Source of the DNA: Tridacna crocea
Taxonomy: Eukaryota > Mollusca > Bivalvia > Cardiida > Cardiidae
Direction: 5' to 3'
DNA length: 64,000 nucleotides
NCBI GenBank assembly: GCA_943736015.1
Contig: OX031065.1
Coordinates: forward strand, 3,851,501 to 3,915,500
The notes under the pieces are model-generated. The model saw nothing but the letters and a program-made list of their open reading frames with translations. It was not told where the DNA came from and did no database searches. The first letter of the stretch is position 1, and each line of letters begins with the position of its first letter. Positions 1,348 to 63,762 of the stretch are shown piece by piece. A program made the translations under genes and the position numbers.

Positions 1348-4300
1348 CTGTAGCAAATACCCATCTCATGTTGTCCTGTTTTGCCATTCCCAACATAGGC
1401 AGCATGGTTCCCAATACAGCAGTCAAATGGGGTACCATGGCATACACTGAAAAGCAATCACAATTTATTTGTAATGATACTAATAAAACTGCAATTTCTT
1501 CTTTTTTATATATTCCAACCTAAAAATTCTGGACTGATTAATCTTGAACTCCTTTCTAAAGTGTTCTGTGCTTTTCTCAAAAGTATTCATGTCAAAGTGG
1601 CAAGTGCATCTATTTATGCATTCCAAGTGTTTATTACTAAAGCTTTGTTTTTTGAAAAACTTTATCAAATTCCAATCGCCACCATTTTTACCCTTTAACT
1701 GCCTTTCACCACTTTAGCTTAGTTATTGCCAGTGTAGATCAAGATCAGAATGCACGAAACATGGATTCTGATCCTAATCTACACTGTCCCCATTGCTGAG
1801 ATTCAGATGTGACTGTACATACCATTAGCTGAGGCCAGATTGGCTATGGTCTGAACAACAAAAAAGTGTGGCAGCACCCCTGGCTGGAATTTCTTCAACA
1901 TTTCTTCCATCACTTCATTACAGTGCTTCTTTCCCAGAGCTACTAGCACACCGCTGGCTGCTGTTTGCCATTCTGGTACAACATCCTGTAAGTGGATAAA
2001 GCTGTACTGGTCACATCAAGCCTATACATATAGTTAAATTATCAAGACATTTTCTGAACTGTCGCCCAAACATCATTTTCTGTGTTACTATTCTGCTCTC
2101 TCTTAACTCTTTACCACACAATCCCAACTTTTAATGACCCTAAGAAAGGGGCCTGCTGGTAACCAGAATTTTTTCCTTTTCCCACAATATTTTCTGCCTT
2201 TCCCAAAGCAAATTTCCATTTTTGAGTCAAAGTAATACTGTTCTCTGCAAAATGCTTTCAATTTGCACAAGTCTAAAAGTTTGGTCATTTGGTAAAGAGT
2301 TAACAGTATACGATACAATCTCAGGTTTAACTCTTCACCAGATGATAAAATTTCAGACTGTTCCAAATTCAAAGTATCAGTAGGGGACAAATTTCAAGTG
2401 ACTCAAAAAATCAAACAATTGTTTTGAGAAGGGTAGAAAACATTGTAGGAAAAGGAGAAATTGATGGTTACAAGCATTTTCTCCTTTTCCCACAATGTTT
2501 TCAAAAGGCTTCTGTAACTCTTTACCAAACAATAAAATTTTGGGGACCCTGAAGAAGGCTTATGAAAACGTAATGGGAAATGCTGGCTACCAACCCTGGT
2601 CAGCATTTTCTCCATTTCCTACGATACTTTCTGCCCCATCAAAGACAGAAATAATCATTGAGCCACATTTCAATCTATCGTCACCAAATGCTTTAAACTT
2701 TGTCGCTCAGCAAAAACTTAAATGGTTAACTCTTTACCAAACGACTAAATTACAAACTGATCTAAATTGAAAGCATTTGCAGACGACAAAATTAATGAGA
2801 CTGACAATTTGGAATTTGGTTTGGGAAAGGTAGAAAACACTGTGGGAAAAGGAGAAAATGCTGGTTACCAGCATTTTCTCCTTTTCCCACAATGTTTTCA
2901 AAAGACTTCTTTCTACGGGTCGTTAAAAGTCTGATAGTGTGCTAGAGAGTTAATTCAATCATTCCCCAAGGAATCCACGGAGTATGTAGCTTATTTGTAG
3001 AAATAGGCATTGAATCTTTCCAAGATTTCCAGCTTCCAACCCATTGTTTTCATGAACCTGAGGAAACTATCATTTGAAAACATTGTGTGAAAAGAAGAAA
3101 ATTCCAAGTTCCAAGACAGATAATCATACTTGTCAAAATTGGAAGCTTTTGCAGACAGCATTTCAAATGTAGCTGAAGAGATAGGATTTGTTTCTGAAAC
3201 AGTAGAAAACAGCGTGGAAAAAGAAAAGAGTTGAAAAATTTATTTGTTCAACTCTTTACCACACAAACCCGACTTTTAATGACCCTGAAAAAGAAGCCTA
3301 TAGAAAACATTGTAGGAAAAGGAGAAAATGCTGATAACCAGCATTGTCTCCTTTTACCGCAATGATTTCTACCCTGTTAGAAACAAATTTCAATATCTGA
3401 ATTACTTTTACTTTGTCATCTGCGAATGCATTCAATTGGGACAGGTCTAAAATTTTGTTGTTTGGTACAGGTTAACTAGTCATCAGTAAGAAAGAAAGTT
3501 TTGAAACCTTGGATTCTGTCAGTTCCTGTGATGCCTGGTTGATAAGGTCCACGGCCAGGTCCTTGTCCAGGTCCTCCAACCTTTCATGTATAATCCTCTC
3601 CATACTTTGTAGGATGGCCACTCTGTGACCTTGTGGAAGCTTTATACGGAAAAATAGTCAACAATGTTTTATCTCTTTACCACACAATGATGACTTTTGA
3701 GGTAGAAGCCTTTTAAAAGCATTTGGGAAAAGGAGAAAATGCTGGTAACCAGCATTTTCTCCTTTTCCAACACCATTTTCTACCCTTCCCAAATCAAATT
3801 TCGATTCTTCAGTCACATTTACTTTGTCATCTGCAAATGCTTTTAATTTAGACCAGTCAATAAATTTATCGTTTTGTAAACCCTTATACATGTATAATTA
3901 TAAGCACATACTAATTTTGATAACTCTTTGCTAAATAAAAAAAAGTTTCGAAAGCATTCTAATCATATTATGAAGTCATCAAATCAAATGTAACTGAAAT
4001 GAAAGGCTTTGTAGGTTAATTGGTAGAAAACACCATGAAGAAAAGAGAAAATACCTGTCACAAGCATATTCTCCTTTTATCTTAATGTTTTAACTCTTTA
4101 CCAAACAACAAAATTTTTGACAGGTCCAAATTGAAAGCATTTGCTGACGACAAAATAAATGTAGCTCAAAAATTGAAATTTGTTTTGGGAAGGGTAGAAA
4201 ACATTGTGGGAAAAGGAGAAAATGCTGGTAACCAGCATTTTCTCCTTTTCCTACAATGTTTTCATAAGGCCTCTCTCTCAGGGTGATTAAAAGTCGGGAT

Positions 4301-6250
4301 TGTGTAGTAAAGAGTTAAAAAGCCCTGTCCATCAGGGCTGTCTGGTAAAGAGTTAATGATGAGGACCTTTGAAAACATTGTGAGAAAAGGAGAAAATTCT
4401 GGTTACCATTATTTCTCCTTTTATCACAAAGTTTTCTACCATTCAAAAGACAAATCCCTACATTCGGGACGAATCTCACTTGTCATCTGCAAATGCTTCA
4501 AACTGGGGCAAGTCTAAAATTTTATCATCTGGAAAAAGGTTAAAGTCTGTACACGAAGAAAATGTTTTGTTACATATGCAAATGCAAAGTATGCGACTGC
4601 AATAAATTTACAAAACTTAATTGCACTGGAAATGTCCATATCTTCTAGTATACCAATTTTCGCTGCTTCCATACCGTTTACAACAGTTTCAATCTCGGGG
4701 ATCTTTCAACCTTCACCGCACAATGGTGAGTCTGAGCAATCCTGAGAAAGAAAGCTTTCGAAAACATTGTCTGAAAAGTATAAAATACTGTTGATAAGTA
4801 TTTTTTTCTTTCCCTATAATATTCAATGTCCTCCTAAAGCCAAATTCAGCTTTTGAACCCAGTTGTCTGCAGAACCTTTCAATTTGGTCAAATCTACAAT
4901 TTTGTCATGGGGTTAAGAGTTAACCCTTTCCCAGACAAAAAGAATTTAGCCTTGTCCAAATTGAGAGCATTTGCAGACGACAATTTCAATGTGGCTCAAA
5001 TGGTGCAATGTTTCTTTGATAGGGTAGAAAACATTGTGGGAAAGGAGAAAATGTTGGTTACCACAGTGACAATGTTTTCAGAAGGCTTCTTTCCCAGGGT
5101 CGTTAAAAGTCGTCATTGTGTGGGAAAGAGTTAACTCTTTACCAAATGAAAAACTCTAACCCTGTCCCTTTACCAGTCACTACCGACTTTTAACTCTGAG
5201 AAAGAAGCCTTCTGAAAACATTGTAGGAAAAAGAGAAAATGCTGGTAACATTTTTCCCACACTGTTTTCTTCCATATTAAAGAAAAATTGTACCATTTAA
5301 GCCACACTGAAACTGTCCTATACAAATGCTTTCAATTTGGACATGGCTACAATTTCAAATTCAAGTTCAAATTGAAACTTTTTGAATACAACAATTCAAA
5401 TGCAGAGTTTTGTGTCTTGGCTGAGAAAGGTTAGAAATTATTGTAGGAATGCGACTAACAGCATTTCTTTTTAAATACTATTTCCAAATGTTCAAATGTT
5501 TTCTTCTGAATCATTAAATTTCAGAATTGTGGCGTAATGGATTTATTCTTTACTACACAATCTCGACTTTTAATGAATGTGAGAGAGAAGACTATTGAAA
5601 ACATTGTGGGAAAAGGCGAAAATGCTGGTAACCAGCATTTTCTCCTTTTCCCACAATGTTTTCTATCCTTTCAGAAACAAATTCCATTATTTGAGCTATA
5701 TTTATAATTTGTTGTCTGCAAATCCTTTCAATTTCAACAATCCTGAAATTTTGTTCTTGGTAAAGAGTTAACCCTTTACCACACAATGACAACTTTAAAC
5801 GACTCCGAGGTAGGTTACCAGCATTTTCTCCCTTTCCCACAAAGTTTTCAACTCTAGCAAAGCGAAAATTGCGTCAATTGAGCCACTATGAGAATATCGT
5901 CTGCAAATACTTTCAAATTGGACAGGTCTAAAATTATGCCGTGTGGTAAAGAGTAAACTCTTTACCAAACGACAAAATTTTAGACTTGTCCAAATTGAAA
6001 GCATTTGCAGATAACAAATTGAATGTGACTTAAATGATGAAATTTGTCTGTGACAGGGTAGAAAACATTGTGGGGAGAGGAGAAAATGCTGATAACCAAA
6101 CCACACCTTTGCATGTTTCTGTAGATAATTGTGACATGAACTGAGAACCAGCTCTGGTTTCTTCTTGCCCAGGTTTAACAGGGAATCACATATAATTTGC
6201 ATACTGTCCTCGTTTCTGTCGAATGCTGCATCAATCAGTGCCATCGTCAT
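1348..6250 (-). CDS. MROH1: MROH1-type maestro HEAT-repeat protein, N-terminal exons (partial)
   Basis: Four minus-strand exons are joined by canonical splice sites and consistent phases: 6252-6107 (ATG at 6250-6248, 48 codons), 3639-3508 (44 codons), 1985-1823 and 1446-1348; the gene then leaves the window. The peptides read MTMALIDAAFDRNEDSMQ.., then LPQGHRVAILQSMERIIHER.., then DVVPEWQTAASGVLVALGKK.., then LTAVLGTMLPMLGMAKQDNM... They show the conserved N-terminal order of maestro heat-like repeat family member 1, including the LGTMLPMLG..KQDNMRWVFAT motif. The family is a large HEAT/ARM helical-repeat protein; in animals MROH1 is linked to lysosome/endosome function, but nothing here tests that. 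The ATG follows an acceptor AG by two bases, so an upstream untranslated exon is expected but was not found. No lesions are visible. Introns are packed with TTAA MITEs, and a half MITE lies less than 10 bp beyond the first donor site. It is divergent from the MCM4 fragment. Confidence 0.9.
1699..1800. mobile_element. Family B palindromic MITE fragment
   Basis: It follows TTAA (1695-1698). It contains the imperfect palindrome 1730-1789 with GTGTAGATCAAGATCAGA and its complement, in the MROH1 intron 23 bp from an exon. Confidence 0.6.
2107..2949. mobile_element. Run of four family A MITEs sharing TTAA junctions
   Basis: 2107-2299 is forward with an internal deletion. 2331-2515 is reverse and lost its right end. 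2518-2725 is forward with a badly damaged hairpin. 2730-2949 is reverse with an intact hairpin (about 2834-2898). TTAA lies at 2103-2106, 2300-2303, 2327-2330, 2726-2729 and 2950-2953. The single TTAA at 2726-2729 serves as flank for two neighbours, as expected if one element inserted into the target duplication of another. Confidence 0.8.
2950..3251. other. Intronic spacer with a decayed family A remnant
   Basis: Only 3060-3240 shows weak similarity to family A (a degraded hairpin arm near 3080 and a TTTGCAGACAG-like segment). No coding signal is visible. Confidence 0.4.
3252..3471 (+). mobile_element. Family A MITE, forward
   Basis: Left end CTCTTTACCACACAAACCC after TTCAA, hairpin at about 3304-3368, right end GTACAGG followed by TTAA (3472-3475). 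It lies 33 bp from the MROH1 exon at 3508-3639. Confidence 0.8.
3673..4314. mobile_element. Three family A MITEs
   Basis: 3673-3890 is forward. 3924-4089 is reverse, with its right end replaced by the next copy. 4094-4314 is reverse and full length with TTAA at both sides (4090-4093 and 4315-4318). The last copy carries the hairpin centre GGTAACC, which is usual for forward copies. Confidence 0.75.
4357..4919 (+). mobile_element. Two decayed forward family A MITEs
   Basis: 4357-4539 lacks the left terminus and has a degraded hairpin. 4710-4919 has TTCAAC at the left, a hairpin with many mismatches, and ends at TTAA 4920-4923. The 160 bp between them show nothing recognisable. Confidence 0.6.
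4924..5767. mobile_element. Cluster of family A MITEs of mixed age
   Basis: 4924-5130 is reverse with one hairpin arm partly deleted. 5135-5166 is a reverse left end only. 5167-5355 is forward with a shortened hairpin. 5370-5540 is reverse and strongly decayed. 5547-5767 is forward with an intact hairpin (about 5598-5662) and TTAA at 5768-5771. Confidence 0.7.
5772..6098. mobile_element. Forward family A MITE and a half reverse copy abutting the MROH1 exon
   Basis: 5772-5953 is forward, missing the left hairpin arm. 5958-6098 is the left half of a reverse copy that stops in the hairpin, 8 bp short of the end of the MROH1 exon (6107, minus strand). The break point is therefore just past the splice donor of that exon. 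Confidence 0.7.
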
Positions 6251-33564: not shown

Positions 33565-33978
33565 TTAAGACACATGACTGCACAGTAAATGGTTAACTAA
33601 GCATACAGGAATTTAGCTTATGAATTCGGAAGAATTTCTTGAATAGACATGTTAAGTGAGAATAGTGCAGAAGCAATTTTAATCATTTTTAGATTTATTT
33701 GTAGATCTATGAAAAATCAGAACTGCTAGCATACTGTTTTTTCAACTAACATTTCATTCCCTTATCCTTATTTATTCTTTCCTAGCCGAGTAATCCGATT
33801 GTGTGGATTCAGGATGAGACTGCATCCTTTGTGTAGTCTAATCTTGATCTACACTTCTACAAAAGTACCAAAACGCCTAATCAGGATTGTCAAATTAAAG
33901 GTGCTATGAAATATACCAAACTAATAGACCTGCATGTATTTTCAGCGCAGTCTGATCTTGATCTTCACAGTCTATTAA

Positions 33979-34398
33979 CACCTAGGCTGCTAAGCGCGAC
34001 TCGCTGACCTTTGGTGGACATTGTAGATCAAGATCAGACTGCACAGAACATGCAGACTAATCTTTGATCTAGACTGTCCGGTAAGTAGTATATGATTCCC
34101 CAAAACGTAAATTTGAAATAGCTATATTTGAGTACCTTTCCCAAACGACAAATTTTAGACTCTTCCAAACTCAAAGAGTTTGCAGACGACAATTTCAAAT
34201 TTGATAAGAATGGCAGAAAGTTCTCCAAATGGGTAGAAAACACTGTGGGAAAAGGGGAAATTGCTCGTTATGAGCAATTTCTCCTTTTCCCACTGTGTTT
34301 TCAAAAGACTTGTAATACAGACACGTAAAAACAAGGGCTTGTTTGGGAAAGGGATATCAAATTGAAAATTCGATTTTACTTATTCAGCAGGTTCAGAG
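33979..34398. mobile_element. Family B MITE with a nested family A' MITE (copy 1)
   Basis: Family B begins after TTAA (33975-33978) with CCTAGGCTGCTAAGCGCGAC. It has its palindrome at about 34017-34080 and ends CAGCAGGTTCAGAG before TTAA (34399-34402). It is split by a family A' element at 34135-34353 (ends CCTTTCCC and GGGAAAGGG, hairpin tip ATTGCTCGTTATGAGCAAT). Confidence 0.75.
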
Positions 34399-45966: not shown

Positions 45967-46382
45967 TTAAGACACATGACTGCACAGTAAATGGTTAACT
46001 AAGCATACAGGAATTTAGCTTATGAATTCGGTATGATTTCTTGAATAGACATGCCATGTGAGAATAGTGCAGAAGCAATTCTAATCATTTGTAGATTTAT
46101 TTGTAGATCTATGAAAAATCAGAACTGCTACCATACTGTTTTATCAACTAACATTTCATTCCCTTATTTTTATTTATTCTTTCCTAGCCGAGTAATCTGA
46201 TTGTGTGGATTCAGGGTGAGACTGCATCCTTTGCGAAGTCTAATCTTGATCTACACTTCTACGAAAGTACCAAAACGCCTAATCAGGATTGTCAAATTAA
46301 AGGTGCTATGAAATATATACCAAACTAATAGACCTACATGTATTTTCGGCGCAGTCTGATCTTGATCTACACAGTCTATTAA

Positions 46383-46802
46383 GACTTAGGCTGCTGAACG
46401 CGACTCGCTGACCTTTGGTGGACATTGTAGATCAAGATCAGACTGCACAGAACATGCGGTCTGATCTTTGCTCTAGACTGTCCGGTAAGTAGTATATGAT
46501 TCCCCAAAACGTAAATTTGAAATAGCTATATTTGAGTACCTTTCCCAAACGACAAATTTTAGACTCTTCCAAACTCAAAGAGTTTGCAGACGACAATTTC
46601 AAATTTGATAAGAATGGCAGAAAGTTCTCCAAATGGATAGAAACCACTGTGGGAAAAGGGGAAATTGCTCGTTATGAGCAATTTCTCCTTTTCCCACAGT
46701 GTTTTCAAAAGACTTGTAATGCAGACACGTAAAAACAAGGGCTTGTTTGGGAAAGGGATATCAAATTGAAAATTCGATTTTAGTTATTCAGCAGGTTCAG
46801 AG
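46383..46802. mobile_element. Same nested B/A' pair in copy 2
   Basis: Family A' part at 46539-46757; TTAA at 46379-46382 and 46803-46806. The nesting arose before the three copies separated. Confidence 0.75.
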
Positions 46803-50163: not shown

Positions 50164-50580
50164 TTAAGACACATGACTATTTAGTAAATGGTTAACTAAG
50201 CATACAGGAATTTAGCTTATGAATTCGGAAGAATTTCTTGAATAGACATGTTAAGTGAGAATAGTGCAGAAGCAATTTTAATCATTTGTAGATTTATTTG
50301 TAGATCTATGAAAAATCAGAACTGCTACCATACTGTTTTATCAACTAACATTTCATTCCCTTATCCTTATTTATTCTTTCCTAGCCGAGTAATCTGATTG
50401 TGTGGATTCAGGATGAGACTGCATCCTTTGCGTAGTCTAATCTTGATCTACACTTCTACAAAAGTACCAAAACGCCTAATCAGGATTGTCAAATTAAAGT
50501 TGTTATGAAATATCATACCAAACTAATAGACCTGCATGTATTTTCGGCGCAGTCTGATCTTGATCTTCACAGTCTATTAA

Positions 50581-51000
50581 AACCTAGGCTGCTAAGCGCG
50601 ACTCGCTGACCTTTGGTGTGCATTGTAGATCAAAATCAGACTGCACAGAACATGCAGTCTAATCTTTGCTCTAGACTGTCCGATAAGTAGTATATGATTC
50701 CCCAAAACGTAAATTTGAAATAGCTATATTTGAGTACCTATCCCAAACGACAAATTTTAGACTCTTCCAAACTCAAAGAGTTTGCAGACGACAATTTCAA
50801 ATTTGATAAGAATGGCAGAAAGTTCTCCAAATGGATAGAAACCACTGTGGGAAAAGGGGAAATTGCTCGGTATGAGCAATTTCTCCTTTTCCCACAGTGT
50901 TTTAAAAAGACTTGTACTGCAGACACGTAAAAACAAGGGCTTGTTTGGGAAAGGGATATCAAATTGAAAATTCGATTTTAGTTATTCAGCAGGTTCAGAG
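50581..51000. mobile_element. Same nested B/A' pair in copy 3
   Basis: Family A' part at 50737-50955; TTAA at 50577-50580 and 51001-51004. Confidence 0.75.
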
Positions 51001-53539: not shown

Positions 53540-55380
53540 TAAATAAACATTGCGAGAGGAGGAGTGAGAGGAAAGACAAATGCATGGTTTGAATAAAATA
53601 ATTAGCTAAATGTTTTCCCGAGTTTTAACAGTCAAATGAAGGAAGCTTTCTGGAAAACATGTTTGAAAAAGAAGAAAATGTTGAAAAAACGTATTTCCTG
53701 TCGTTGCCAAAATGTGTTTTACCCTCTCAAAGAAAATTCCTTCTATATGAGTCACGTGTAATTTGTTGTCTTCCTGTTTCCAAAATCGCACAATATGCCA
53801 TATTTTTTTTCTAATGAAGAGTCTTATACTCGGATGACCATCTAAACAAGACTTTAACTTTTAATCGTGCAAAAAAAAACCCAACAAACTCCTGTCATTA
53901 GTTCTAAACCAGGATGTCTAGTTTCCCATAATTAATGAAAAAAAAATAGAGAGAAACCTTTTTATTACAAATTCAAAAATAGAAGTAAAACATTGTGAAA
54001 GATTCAGAGAACACCATGCAGAAAAAAAATATACTTACTTATATGCCTATTTTTTTTTTTTCCAAATCTACGGTCTGTTGTCCCCTTGTTATAATGTTAT
54101 ATTCTGACGATGTGAGCATTAGAAGATAAAACAGCAAGAATGACGAAGCCTTCACAACCGCTCGACTATAAAGATCTGGTGTATTATTGTTTAGCGTGTT
54201 GTCATGGGGTTAAAGGTGGGCATTTAGATTTTTCACATCTCACCAAATTAAAAAATACGTATACCACTGAAATTTATATAAAGAAAAATACAAATCATCA
54301 ATAATTAAGAATCATAAAATTATCCCAAACATTTTTCTTGATGGTATTCCCTTAAAAGGCTACGTAGCCTCTTAAGGTATTTTTAGATTTCGCGCCAAAA
54401 ATGAAAAAAAGCATTGTGGGAATGTAAAGTGACCGGCACGTAACTAATGGTGCTTAAATTCCATAACATAACAAACATTTAATTATTTTCCATAATGTCT
54501 TCTTCGGACGCTATGTTTGAAGTGTTGGCTGTGTACTTCCTGTATGTAAATGAGCAAGTTGCTCATCTAAAAATAGACCGTATTTCCCGTCGGTGTCGAC
54601 CTGAACCGTAGTAAATCTCTAATTTTCCTTGTTGTCTGGTGGTTTTCGACTGCTGGGGTTTTATGAATGAAAATTAAAAGGCCTTGGGAATATAAGGATG
54701 AATTTTTTGTATTTTTGTAAAATTTTCGTCCCAAAATCTGAAGGGCCACCTTTAATGTTGCTAGGTAAAACATTGAATTGTCAATCAGGTAAATGTTCCG
54801 TCCGGGTACCTCTTTTGAAGAAATAGAAACATTACACTACATTATGACGAAAGCATAAAGTGCCGGTATCTGATATATTCTCCTTTTTCCATCTGTTTTA
54901 GCAAATGCTTTGAATTTAGAAGAGCTTAACATGTCGTCTGCAAATACTTTTATTTGAGCAAATCTAAAACGTTGTCGTAGTCCAGTTAAAAATTGACAAA
55001 CACAAGATATTAAAGGGGGTTGTGTAGATTGTTCAAAACTTTTAGAAATTGATTTGTACTGACATGATTCTGTTCTTTTTCGTGTAACAACGCTTTATCA
55101 AATGACAAAATAACAGGCTTTCCAATATTGAAAGTATTTGCAGAAAAAACGTTAAATAACATTAGAATAATAGAATATGTCTTCAAAGGACAGACAACTC
55201 TGTGGGGAAAGAGCTTGACTATGGTAACCAGCAATTTCATCTTTTCCCACAATGTTTTCGAAAGCCATTAGGGCTGTTAAAACAGGAGATTGTGATGGAT
55301 GGATATATGGCTAAAGAGCTGCAAACAATTCATAAGAAACCTACAAGAAAATGAGATATATAGCATATTGTTGTTTCCTT
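53540..55380. other. AT-rich intergenic stretch with decayed family A copies
   Basis: Degraded MITE traces at 53610-53795, 54840-54975 and 55090-55316. No gene is supported; the short frames at 53606-53791 and 55010-55252 are MITE translations. Confidence 0.45.
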
Positions 55381-61310: not shown

Positions 61311-61369
61311 AAAAGTATCAATATTGCAAATTAAGACATTGTACAAAATAGCAGAAAGTCTAGATTTAA

Positions 61370-61573
61370 CCCTTAGGCAGCTAAGCGCGACTCACTGACC
61401 TTTAGCGGACAGTGTAGATCAAGATCAGACTGCACAGAACGTGCAGTCTGATCTTGCATCTACACTGTCCGATTAGGAAATATTTTTCTCCAAAAACTAA
61501 ATCTGAAGTAGCATTATTCGGGATTTTACAACCGGCATGAAAGTTAAGGTAAAGTAATGAAGCAGGTAACGGG
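61370..61573. mobile_element. Family B MITE, full length
   Basis: 204 bp between TTAA at 61366-61369 and 61574-61577, ends CCCTTAGGCAG and GTAACGGG. Palindrome at 61407-61470 with 29-bp arms differing by a single inserted C. It serves as type copy for family B. Confidence 0.85.
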
Positions 61574-61577
61574 TTAA

Positions 61578-62050
61578 ATATCGACTGTCCTTTGCATTTT
61601 GTCCGATCTTGATTCTTATTGTCGACCCAAGCAAATAAATTCTACTTTGTACTGCAAGGGTTTTTCTTTTGTAAGCTATTAAGTTACCGATATGTTTTTT
61701 TGCCACTGTGATTTATATTCAAATGTGTACCTTGGTATTTGACAACAAAAGAGACAAAGAGATATTGAGCTATTTTGAGAACAATTGGTATGAAATCTTT
61801 AACTAAAAGAATTTTAAGCGTGACTTGCAGCTCTTATGAAAATAATGTAGACTAGGATCAGACTACAGAGTACACATAGGTTGATCTTTGATTTACATTG
61901 TGCAATATTCTCCAGAATATTTTGACAGAGATGTTGGAGCTTACAATGTTTGGTCCTTTTTTACTTTAAAAATCTTTACATCATGCCTTTATCAGACATT
62001 TCTTTGTTTGTCCGGTCATTCCGTACAGCGTGTTTTAAAGTTTTGCCGAC
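61578..62050. other. Intergenic, family B remnant
   Basis: Broken family B palindrome at about 61844-61904 (TGTAGACTAGGATCAGACTA and partner). No gene before the ORF at 62051. Confidence 0.4.
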
Positions 62051-62907
62051 ATGGTCCTTTTTTTTGTCACCATGACGGTGAAGAACCCCGTCAAAGTGAA
62101 CACTATAAGAAACAGCTCGAAATTACATTCATATGAATTATACACTATGTTTCTGCATGCAACAGGCCAGTGTCTCAAACTGAACCAAAGATCAAGAACA
62201 CTCGTACCAAACATCCGTCAGTACAAGTCACTACATGCAGCAAGCTCTTCATTAAATAACTGCTGTGACGAGTCTCCAAGCAGGACACTTGGTTTTGGAA
62301 ACAGTTACACCTTGAATACAGCTAAAGTAACCTCTAAACAAAATGTGATGAGGGTAAATAACCCATTTAACTCATTACCACACGAGAAAATTTTGGACTC
62401 GTCCAAACTGAAAGCATCTGCAGACGACAAAATAAAGGTGACTGAAAAATAGACATTTGTTCTGGGAAGGGTAGAAAACACTGTGGGAAAAGGAGAAAAT
62501 GCTACCAGCATTTTCTACTTTTCCCACAGTGTTTTCAAAAGGCTTCTTTCTCAGGGGCATCAAAAGCAGGGATTGTGTGGTAATGGGTTAACTATAGGTC
62601 GTTACTGAATAGTGGCACCATCACAAACATCACATTGTATCAAACTTACAGTGCTTACCCAGATCAACCACTGCCTGGTAACCCAAGTCGTGAATATAAT
62701 GGATCTTTTGCAAGTAACCAGGTACATCTGTACCATAGCAACACAGAAGAATCGATTGGGATAATGGCGGAAAATCTACACAGAAACAAAATTTCTCCAT
62801 TATCTTATAGCAATTACATCAATAGGAGATTGAGATCAGTTGAAAAGGAAAGAGAGCAAAATGGCAATCTGATCATTGATCTTGAATTCGGGAAGAAACA
62901 TTGTTAA
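62051..62907 (+). pseudogene. Unrecognised ORF split by a TTAA MITE
   Basis: The first part starts at an ATG in good context (GCCGACATGG) and stays open for about 107 codons to the TTAA at 62367-62370. The second part, from 62588, stays open for about 105 codons and ends at a TAA (62905-62907) that belongs to the flank of the next MITE. Joining 62370 to 62592, that is removing one MITE and one TTAA, keeps the same frame: codons run VNNPF before and NYRSLLN after. Sample peptides are SLHAASSSLNNCCDESPSRT and EESIGIMAENLHRNKISPLS, polar with no signal peptide, membrane segment or known motif. I do not recognise the family. A possible acceptor at 62165 and donor at 62354 mean that part of it may be a conventional exon and the MITE may be intronic. 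Confidence 0.5.
62371..62587 (-). mobile_element. Family A MITE, reverse, inside an ORF
   Basis: 217 bp with perfect TTAA flanks (62367-62370 and 62588-62591). The stem arm carries CACTGTGGG with the matching CCCACAGTG. The apical TGG..CCA of the hairpin is shortened. Confidence 0.85.
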
Positions 62908-63762
62908 ACCTTTATCAAAAGACAATACTATGGCGAAAATGAAAGCATTGGCAGGCAACAACAAAACTTTGACTTAAAATTGAAACTTGTTTATGAAAGG
63001 ATAGAAAGGATTGTCCTTAACTCTTTACTAAACGACAAAATTTTTGACTTGTTCAAATTGAAAGGATTTGCAGACGACAAAATAAATGTGAGTGACAATT
63101 TGATTTGTGAAGGGTAGAAAGCATTGCGGGAAAAGGAGAAAATGCTGGTTACCAGCATTTTCTCCTTTTCCCATAATGTTTTTAAATACCTCTTTCTCAG
63201 AATGGTAATGGGTTAATAAGAAAAAAAATGCTAGTTATCAGCGTTTTCTCATTTTCTCACAATATTTTCAAAAGGCGTCTTTGTAAGGGTTGCTAAAACC
63301 GGGGACTGTGGGGTGAAGAGTTAGGTATTTCTTTGAACTTGTCCAATTTGAAGGCTTTTGCAGACAACACAATATATGTGACTGAGAAATTGATATTGCT
63401 ATTGAAGGTAGAAAACACTATGGGAAAAGGAAATATTGTTGATGACAAGTGTACTGTCCTTTTCTGACAATGTTTTCAGAAGCTGTCTTCCTCAGGATAG
63501 TTAAAAGTCAAATATGTGCGAAAAGGGGTACACCTGTACCCACACAACAAAATTCTGGTACGGGAATTTTTCAATATCGATATCTAAATGAATTTAGCTC
63601 GTATTAAATTAATACGTCTTTAGAATGGTAGAAAACATTGTGGAAATTACGATTTCCAGCTTTGAAAGGAAAGAAAACATTATTAGGAAAAATTGATGCT
63701 TGCCAGCAATTTCTGCTTTTCCAGCAGTATTTTCAAAATGGTTCTTCTTCATGGCCATTAAA
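62908..63762. mobile_element. Run of damaged family A MITEs
   Basis: 62908-63016 is a reverse left part. 63021-63212 is reverse with a good hairpin (TTAA 63017-63020 and 63213-63216). 63217-63322 is a hairpin plus right end. 63330-63524 is reverse and decayed. 63525-63762 is reverse and strongly decayed. Confidence 0.65.

Follow-up and report, generated by a model that had tools for sequence, protein, structure and literature searches.

The window analysed here is a stretch of 64,000 nucleotides, C10:3851501-3915500. In it, a 217-bp element at 62371-62587 is bounded on each side by TTAA (62367-62370 and 62588-62591), the two copies of a target site duplication recognised in the sequence and by BLASTN against L026, a copy of the same site elsewhere in the assembly. 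We annotate it on the minus strand as a non-autonomous TTAA element (a MITE) from the comparison of its ends with a transposase-bearing unit. On either side lies plus-strand sequence belonging to a single pseudogene piece, of which the left part, 62143-62370, has the left TTAA as its end, while the right part, 62588-63015, comprises a coding tail down to a stop codon ending at 62907, followed by 3′ flank. The element and its two TTAA sites lie exactly where a preliminary description of this DNA had placed them, and its claim about the flanking frames also holds: open frames at 62039-62452 and 62584-62907 are in phase after the removal of 221 bp, that is, the MITE and one TTAA.

The split exon and its parent gene

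Each half of the split frame was searched separately against the assembly (1.05 Gb in 31 contigs), and six copies were found at E<=0.01. The parent copy, L026 (C10:989000-998000, around 994 kb), lies on the same chromosome about 2.9 Mb from the window and has an open frame of 1354 codons, the last of which correspond to both halves of the window sequence, unbroken and free of the element. A homologue spanning both halves is therefore present in the same genome, open and empty; the preliminary description had named the lack of such a homologue in related species as grounds for refutation. The left part of the window piece matches L026 5334-5557 at 91.7% identity (BLASTN, together with protein matches), and the right part matches L026 5554-5992 at 90.9% identity (BLASTN). 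These two matches overlap by exactly four bases, TTAA (L026 5554-5557), which occur once in L026, once in a further copy, L027, and twice in the window, so that the window and L026 form a filled/empty comparison showing the TTAA duplication.

L026 has C2H2 fingers: its positions 1809-5870 score over the Pfam cut-off for PF13465, PF13894 and PF00096, and the solved chain closest in sequence to its protein, among the best 60 of 67 matches, is 5wjq_D, zinc finger protein 568. In the window, matches to the parent protein are confined to residues 1176-1354 (tblastn, E<=1e-3); its zinc-finger part is matched neither in these 64 kb nor in the 10-kb stretches surrounding the three further copies that carry the element. 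Neither half alone reaches the cut-off of any Pfam family; RNF111_N, a sub-threshold match (E 0.061), was rejected as the identity of the left half. Window positions 62143-63015 hold a duplicated fragment from the stop-codon end of a C2H2 zinc-finger coding exon, and this common origin in one exon accounts for the matching open phase on the two sides of the element. Like other duplicated, non-processed C2H2 pseudogenes, the fragment is a genomic copy that includes 3′ flank and is truncated and frameshifted, but it differs from an ordinary duplicated pseudogene in that a TTAA element has multiplied along with it.

The reading of 62051-62907 as one continuous ORF, also part of the preliminary description, stands only in part. 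Homology to the parent starts only at 62143, and about 31 codons of the ORF precede this point, outside the homology. Moreover, alignment places a 4-bp insertion on the plus strand at about 62234-62237, shared with L028 and found relative to L026, L027, L029 and L030, so the codons of the reported ORF upstream of it are off the ancestral frame. This affects the next 31 or so codons after 62143, and thus about 62 codons in all represent a chance frame. What is ancestral in the ORF is about 43 codons to the left of the element and about 105 to its right.

Filled and empty copies

Four of the six copies are filled, namely, the window and those at C10:3439633, C10:3549131 and C10:3705969, all within C10:3.44-3.91 Mb. 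The two empty ones are L026 and L027 (around C10:1066 kb), the latter a near-complete duplicate of the parent (C10:1061000-1070000) that is empty at the element site and has three stops in the parent's frame as well as insertions of 1, 24 and 10 nt. All four filled copies begin mid-exon at parent base 5334 and have the element at an identical position, which argues for one old insertion that was multiplied together with the truncated pseudogene; the element is retained in every copy that bears the truncation. Between the window and L028, L029 and L030, the element differs by 0 of 217, 6 of 217 and 12 of 216 positions (0%, 2.8% and 5.6%), and the flanks differ by 0.6%, 5.6% and 4.5%, respectively. 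Element and flanks have thus diverged roughly alike, as expected if the element predates the multiplication of the copies. Across longer stretches, identity between the window and L028 is about 98.5%.

The filled copies also acquired changes of their own after copying, such as a 2-bp insertion in L029 and, in L030, a 4-bp deletion to the right of the element and a further insertion to its left. In addition, the pseudogene piece of L030 has an insertion of about 460 bp (~4511-4969) with similar inverted ends, flanked by the 8-bp repeat GTAACCTC (window 62327-62334), and this insertion may be hAT-like. The insert at the shared site measures 225 bp in L029, 224 bp in L030 and 221 bp in the window and L028, and was probably 225 bp originally, with 221 bp a later state; in the hairpin loop of the element, 4 bp present in L029 and L030 are absent from the window copy. 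If the frame is read straight through the element, a TAG is met inside it in three of the four copies (window, L028 and L029), L029 has an additional TAA at the end of the element, and in L030 the frame is open across the element with a stop just after it. The left flank and the element group the window with L029, while the right flank groups it with L030, and this different grouping on the two sides suggests that exchange between the duplicated filled copies probably took place.

The comparison of L026 and L027 shows past selection on the zinc-finger gene: synonymous and non-synonymous changes number 44 each (dN/dS 0.24), where neutrality predicts 62.9 non-synonymous changes (sd 4.0, lowest 52 in 400 simulations). 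When compared with the parent, the window copy is not distinguishable from drift: in blocks that keep the ancestral frame, 15 of 24 changes relative to L026 are non-synonymous, with 17.6 (sd 2.1) expected neutrally (P 0.16). Six pairs were simulated, with L030 left out; L029 against L026 gave fewer non-synonymous changes than expected (12 of 22 versus 16.3 under drift, P 0.035), which weighs against the pseudogene reading, and the other five pairs gave P values of 0.15 to 1. For the right half alone, dN/dS is about 0.35 between the window and L029 (Fisher p 0.055) and about 0.44 between the window and L026 (p 0.12); all these tests on filled copies involve few changes, and the comparisons with L026 take in the constrained branch of the parent. 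The filled copies may hold a trace of past constraint, part of which the parent's branch would account for.

The element and its piggyBac affiliation

The terminal inverted repeat of the element (62367-62383 and 62575-62591) spans 17 nt including TTAA and is 94% complementary, which leaves 13 bp without the TTAA. Its centre is a hairpin at 62474-62536 with 30-nt arms that are 97% complementary. As single-stranded DNA, the element folds at -50.8 kcal/mol, compared with -20.6 (sd 3.0) for shuffled sequences, none of 200 of which was as good. The CCC end, inward CCCATTACCACACAATCCC, is its right side; since the counterpart of this end in the transposase-bearing unit is the left one, we write the element on the minus strand.

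The piggyBac transposase domain PF13843 has at least 118 matches in the genome, many of them in long open frames (116 of 196 candidates scored). When 30 such loci were compared, two families showed TTAA ends on each side, and a third showed a left end. A further unit, 7.2 kb long and bounded by TTAA at C5:7864470-7871664, contains PF13843 in an open frame of 492 codons; its two ends are unequal, reading CCCATTACCGTTCAATAACGCC and (inward) CTCATTACCACTCAGAG. Another copy, on C9, keeps 99.9% identity over the whole unit and has no TTAA at its right flank. The CCC end of the MITE agrees with that of the 7.2-kb unit at 13 of 16 and 27 of 35 positions and the CTC end at 12 of 16 and 15 of 35, whereas the left ends of three other piggyBac families agree with the CCC end at only 8, 5 and 5 of 16. 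The unit shares with the MITE the two unequal ends CCCATTACC and CTCATTACC, TTAA flanks and a similar CCC end, and differs from it in having a transposase frame and in that the CTC ends are alike over the outer 12 or so bases only.

Given these matches, the MITE is best filed as a non-autonomous relative of piggyBac, with the reserve that its termini are CCCA and CTCA rather than CC[C/T]T. The latter motif is given as general in a study of coral elements, in which the piggyBac element AmiPB4 nevertheless begins with CCCATT (PMC2872659), and the 7.2-kb transposase-bearing unit has the same ends as the MITE. The preliminary attribution to a piggyBac-type TTAA element is thereby supported, both by the target site duplication and by these ends, and the 7.2-kb unit is a likely source of transposase for the MITE, judging from its termini. 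The unit (loci L061, L049, L062 and L065) also contains at least one full-length and several partial MITE matches, which look like nested copies or pieces.

Family size and the central hairpin

A 32-bp query for the CCC end of the family, allowing at most one mismatch, has 104,252 matches in the 1.05-Gb genome (52,111 forward and 52,141 reverse), a count of ends rather than of proven full copies, and the reversed control pattern has none genome-wide. The query is one mismatch away from the window's own end (62560-62591). For sequence comparison, 43 distinct full copies were collected, and 41 rows remained after the L029 and L030 copies of the same insertion were dropped; the set includes 11 copies from the window in addition to the element at 62371-62587, which has the same sequence as the L028 element and is represented by it. 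Mean pairwise identity among the 41 is 0.91 in the central hairpin, 0.85 at the ends and 0.78 in the rest, in a set biased toward this element because it was collected by similarity to it. The window contains 68 complete or partial occurrences of the hairpin core (62474-62536 and 67 others), 16 of which lie between two recognisable family ends.

Arm-to-arm correction was considered as an explanation for the conservation of the hairpin and rejected. Paired changes numbered 11, whereas 500 shuffles gave 3.8 (sd 1.6) and never more than 9; however, a single pair of positions, 62481/62529, contributes 8 of the 11, which may reflect common descent. The proportion of paired cells was 91.7%, compared with 90.8% in the shuffles. 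Another possibility, which we regard as doubtful, is that the central palindrome serves as a mobilisation module of the family. If so, it may help explain how more than 100,000 TTAA-element ends came to be in one genome.

The closest known parallel among those considered here is provided by the CMITEs of corals, TTAA MITEs of about 100 bp, estimated at around 1,600, that are linked to a co-resident piggyBac and vary less in the interior than at the ends; the conserved interior was suggested to help account for their spread (PMC2872659). As described there, they resemble our MITE in being small and non-coding, in their TTAA duplication, CCC-type terminus and piggyBac-like ends, in having their interior best conserved and in the existence of filled and empty versions of one site. 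The MITE differs from them in its length (217-225 bp), in its two end sequences, CCCATTACC and CTCATTACC, in its central hairpin with 30-nt arms and in its abundance, with 104,252 ends against those estimated 1,600 CMITEs. What deserves another look in this analysis is how large the family is and how well its hairpin has been conserved.

Origin of the split frame

The explanation that we favour, with a probability of somewhat more than 90%, is that a piggyBac-type MITE inserted once in a 5′-truncated exon duplicate, after which segment and element were copied together and drifted. A miniature piggyBac-type element would have entered a TTAA of the truncated zinc-finger exon duplicate, doubling the TTAA, presumably by cut-and-paste insertion through the transposase of the 7.2-kb unit or a related one. 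The truncated segment and the element would then have been copied together within C10:3.44-3.91 Mb in at least three copying events, given that there are four filled copies. The filled copies would subsequently have drifted, accumulating small indels that are private or, as in the window and L028, shared. We infer that the exon duplicate was truncated before the element inserted, or at about that time, but the order could have been the reverse, with a full-length third copy hit first and truncated later.

The preliminary description had offered two other readings, a recent insertion that destroyed a gene and an element tolerated as an intron, and the data support neither. The phase of the two halves and the existence elsewhere of an open gene with the same tail would agree with the recent breakage of a working gene at the window locus. 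However, the insertion is common to four of six copies, among which the element has diverged by as many as 12 substitutions, the host begins mid-exon with no zinc-finger match in the 64-kb window or in the 10 kb searched at each other filled copy, and a 4-bp frameshift lies to the left of the element; thus, we consider such a break very improbable. An intron similar to introners is, in our judgement, the least probable of the readings considered. It could find a donor in the GTAAAT at 62354, and 71 GT/GC-AG pairs hold the ancestral frame open from 62255 to 62907. Nevertheless, an intron of exactly 221 bp must begin within 62367-62371, TTAAC, where there is neither GT nor GC, and the only acceptors that preserve the frame with the 62354 donor lie at 62721 or farther downstream, at the cost of real coding sequence. 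The other pairs, judged by eye among 60 of the 71, look weak or remove coding sequence, and the region is in any case a truncated, frameshifted pseudogene. Among introners, according to PMC9860276, there are non-autonomous DNA elements that have inverted ends, duplicate their target and lie inside genes; the MITE differs from those described there in that its boundary has no splice site and its host is a truncated pseudogene.

A further scenario is that the ancestor shared by all six copies already had the element and that L026 and L027 were emptied by seamless excision. As stated in PMC7351741, piggyBac can leave without a footprint, and an empty TTAA alone is therefore indistinguishable from one that was never filled. 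Such a history, however, requires one extra event, and truncation and filling go together throughout, with all four truncated copies filled and both untruncated copies empty; in addition, the stop inside the element in three of the four filled copies (all but L030) would clip the tail of a constrained gene. We thus give it hardly any weight, slightly less than a recent break and slightly more than an intron. Since an open, empty exon copy explains the phase of the two halves, neither a reversible break nor a new intron need be invoked. Under the single old insertion that we favour, the window locus looks like a TTAA element lodged in a truncated, duplicated pseudogene, a case of ordinary genome decay and not a switchable gene. 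The by-products of the analysis are more useful, namely, the pair of filled and empty sites, the likely transposase source and the count of more than 100,000 ends.

Other repeats near the locus

Several other repeated sequences were observed in the window. Immediately 3′ of the pseudogene piece, 63017-63216 is occupied by a further such element, likewise flanked by TTAA. At a distance from this piece, positions 54210-54755 match L026 7438-7984, in the 3′ flank of the open zinc-finger gene, at 85%, and perhaps represent another repeat. Finally, the repeated blocks at 33975-34122, 46379-46526 and 50571-50724 also match 61366-61512, upstream of the pseudogene.
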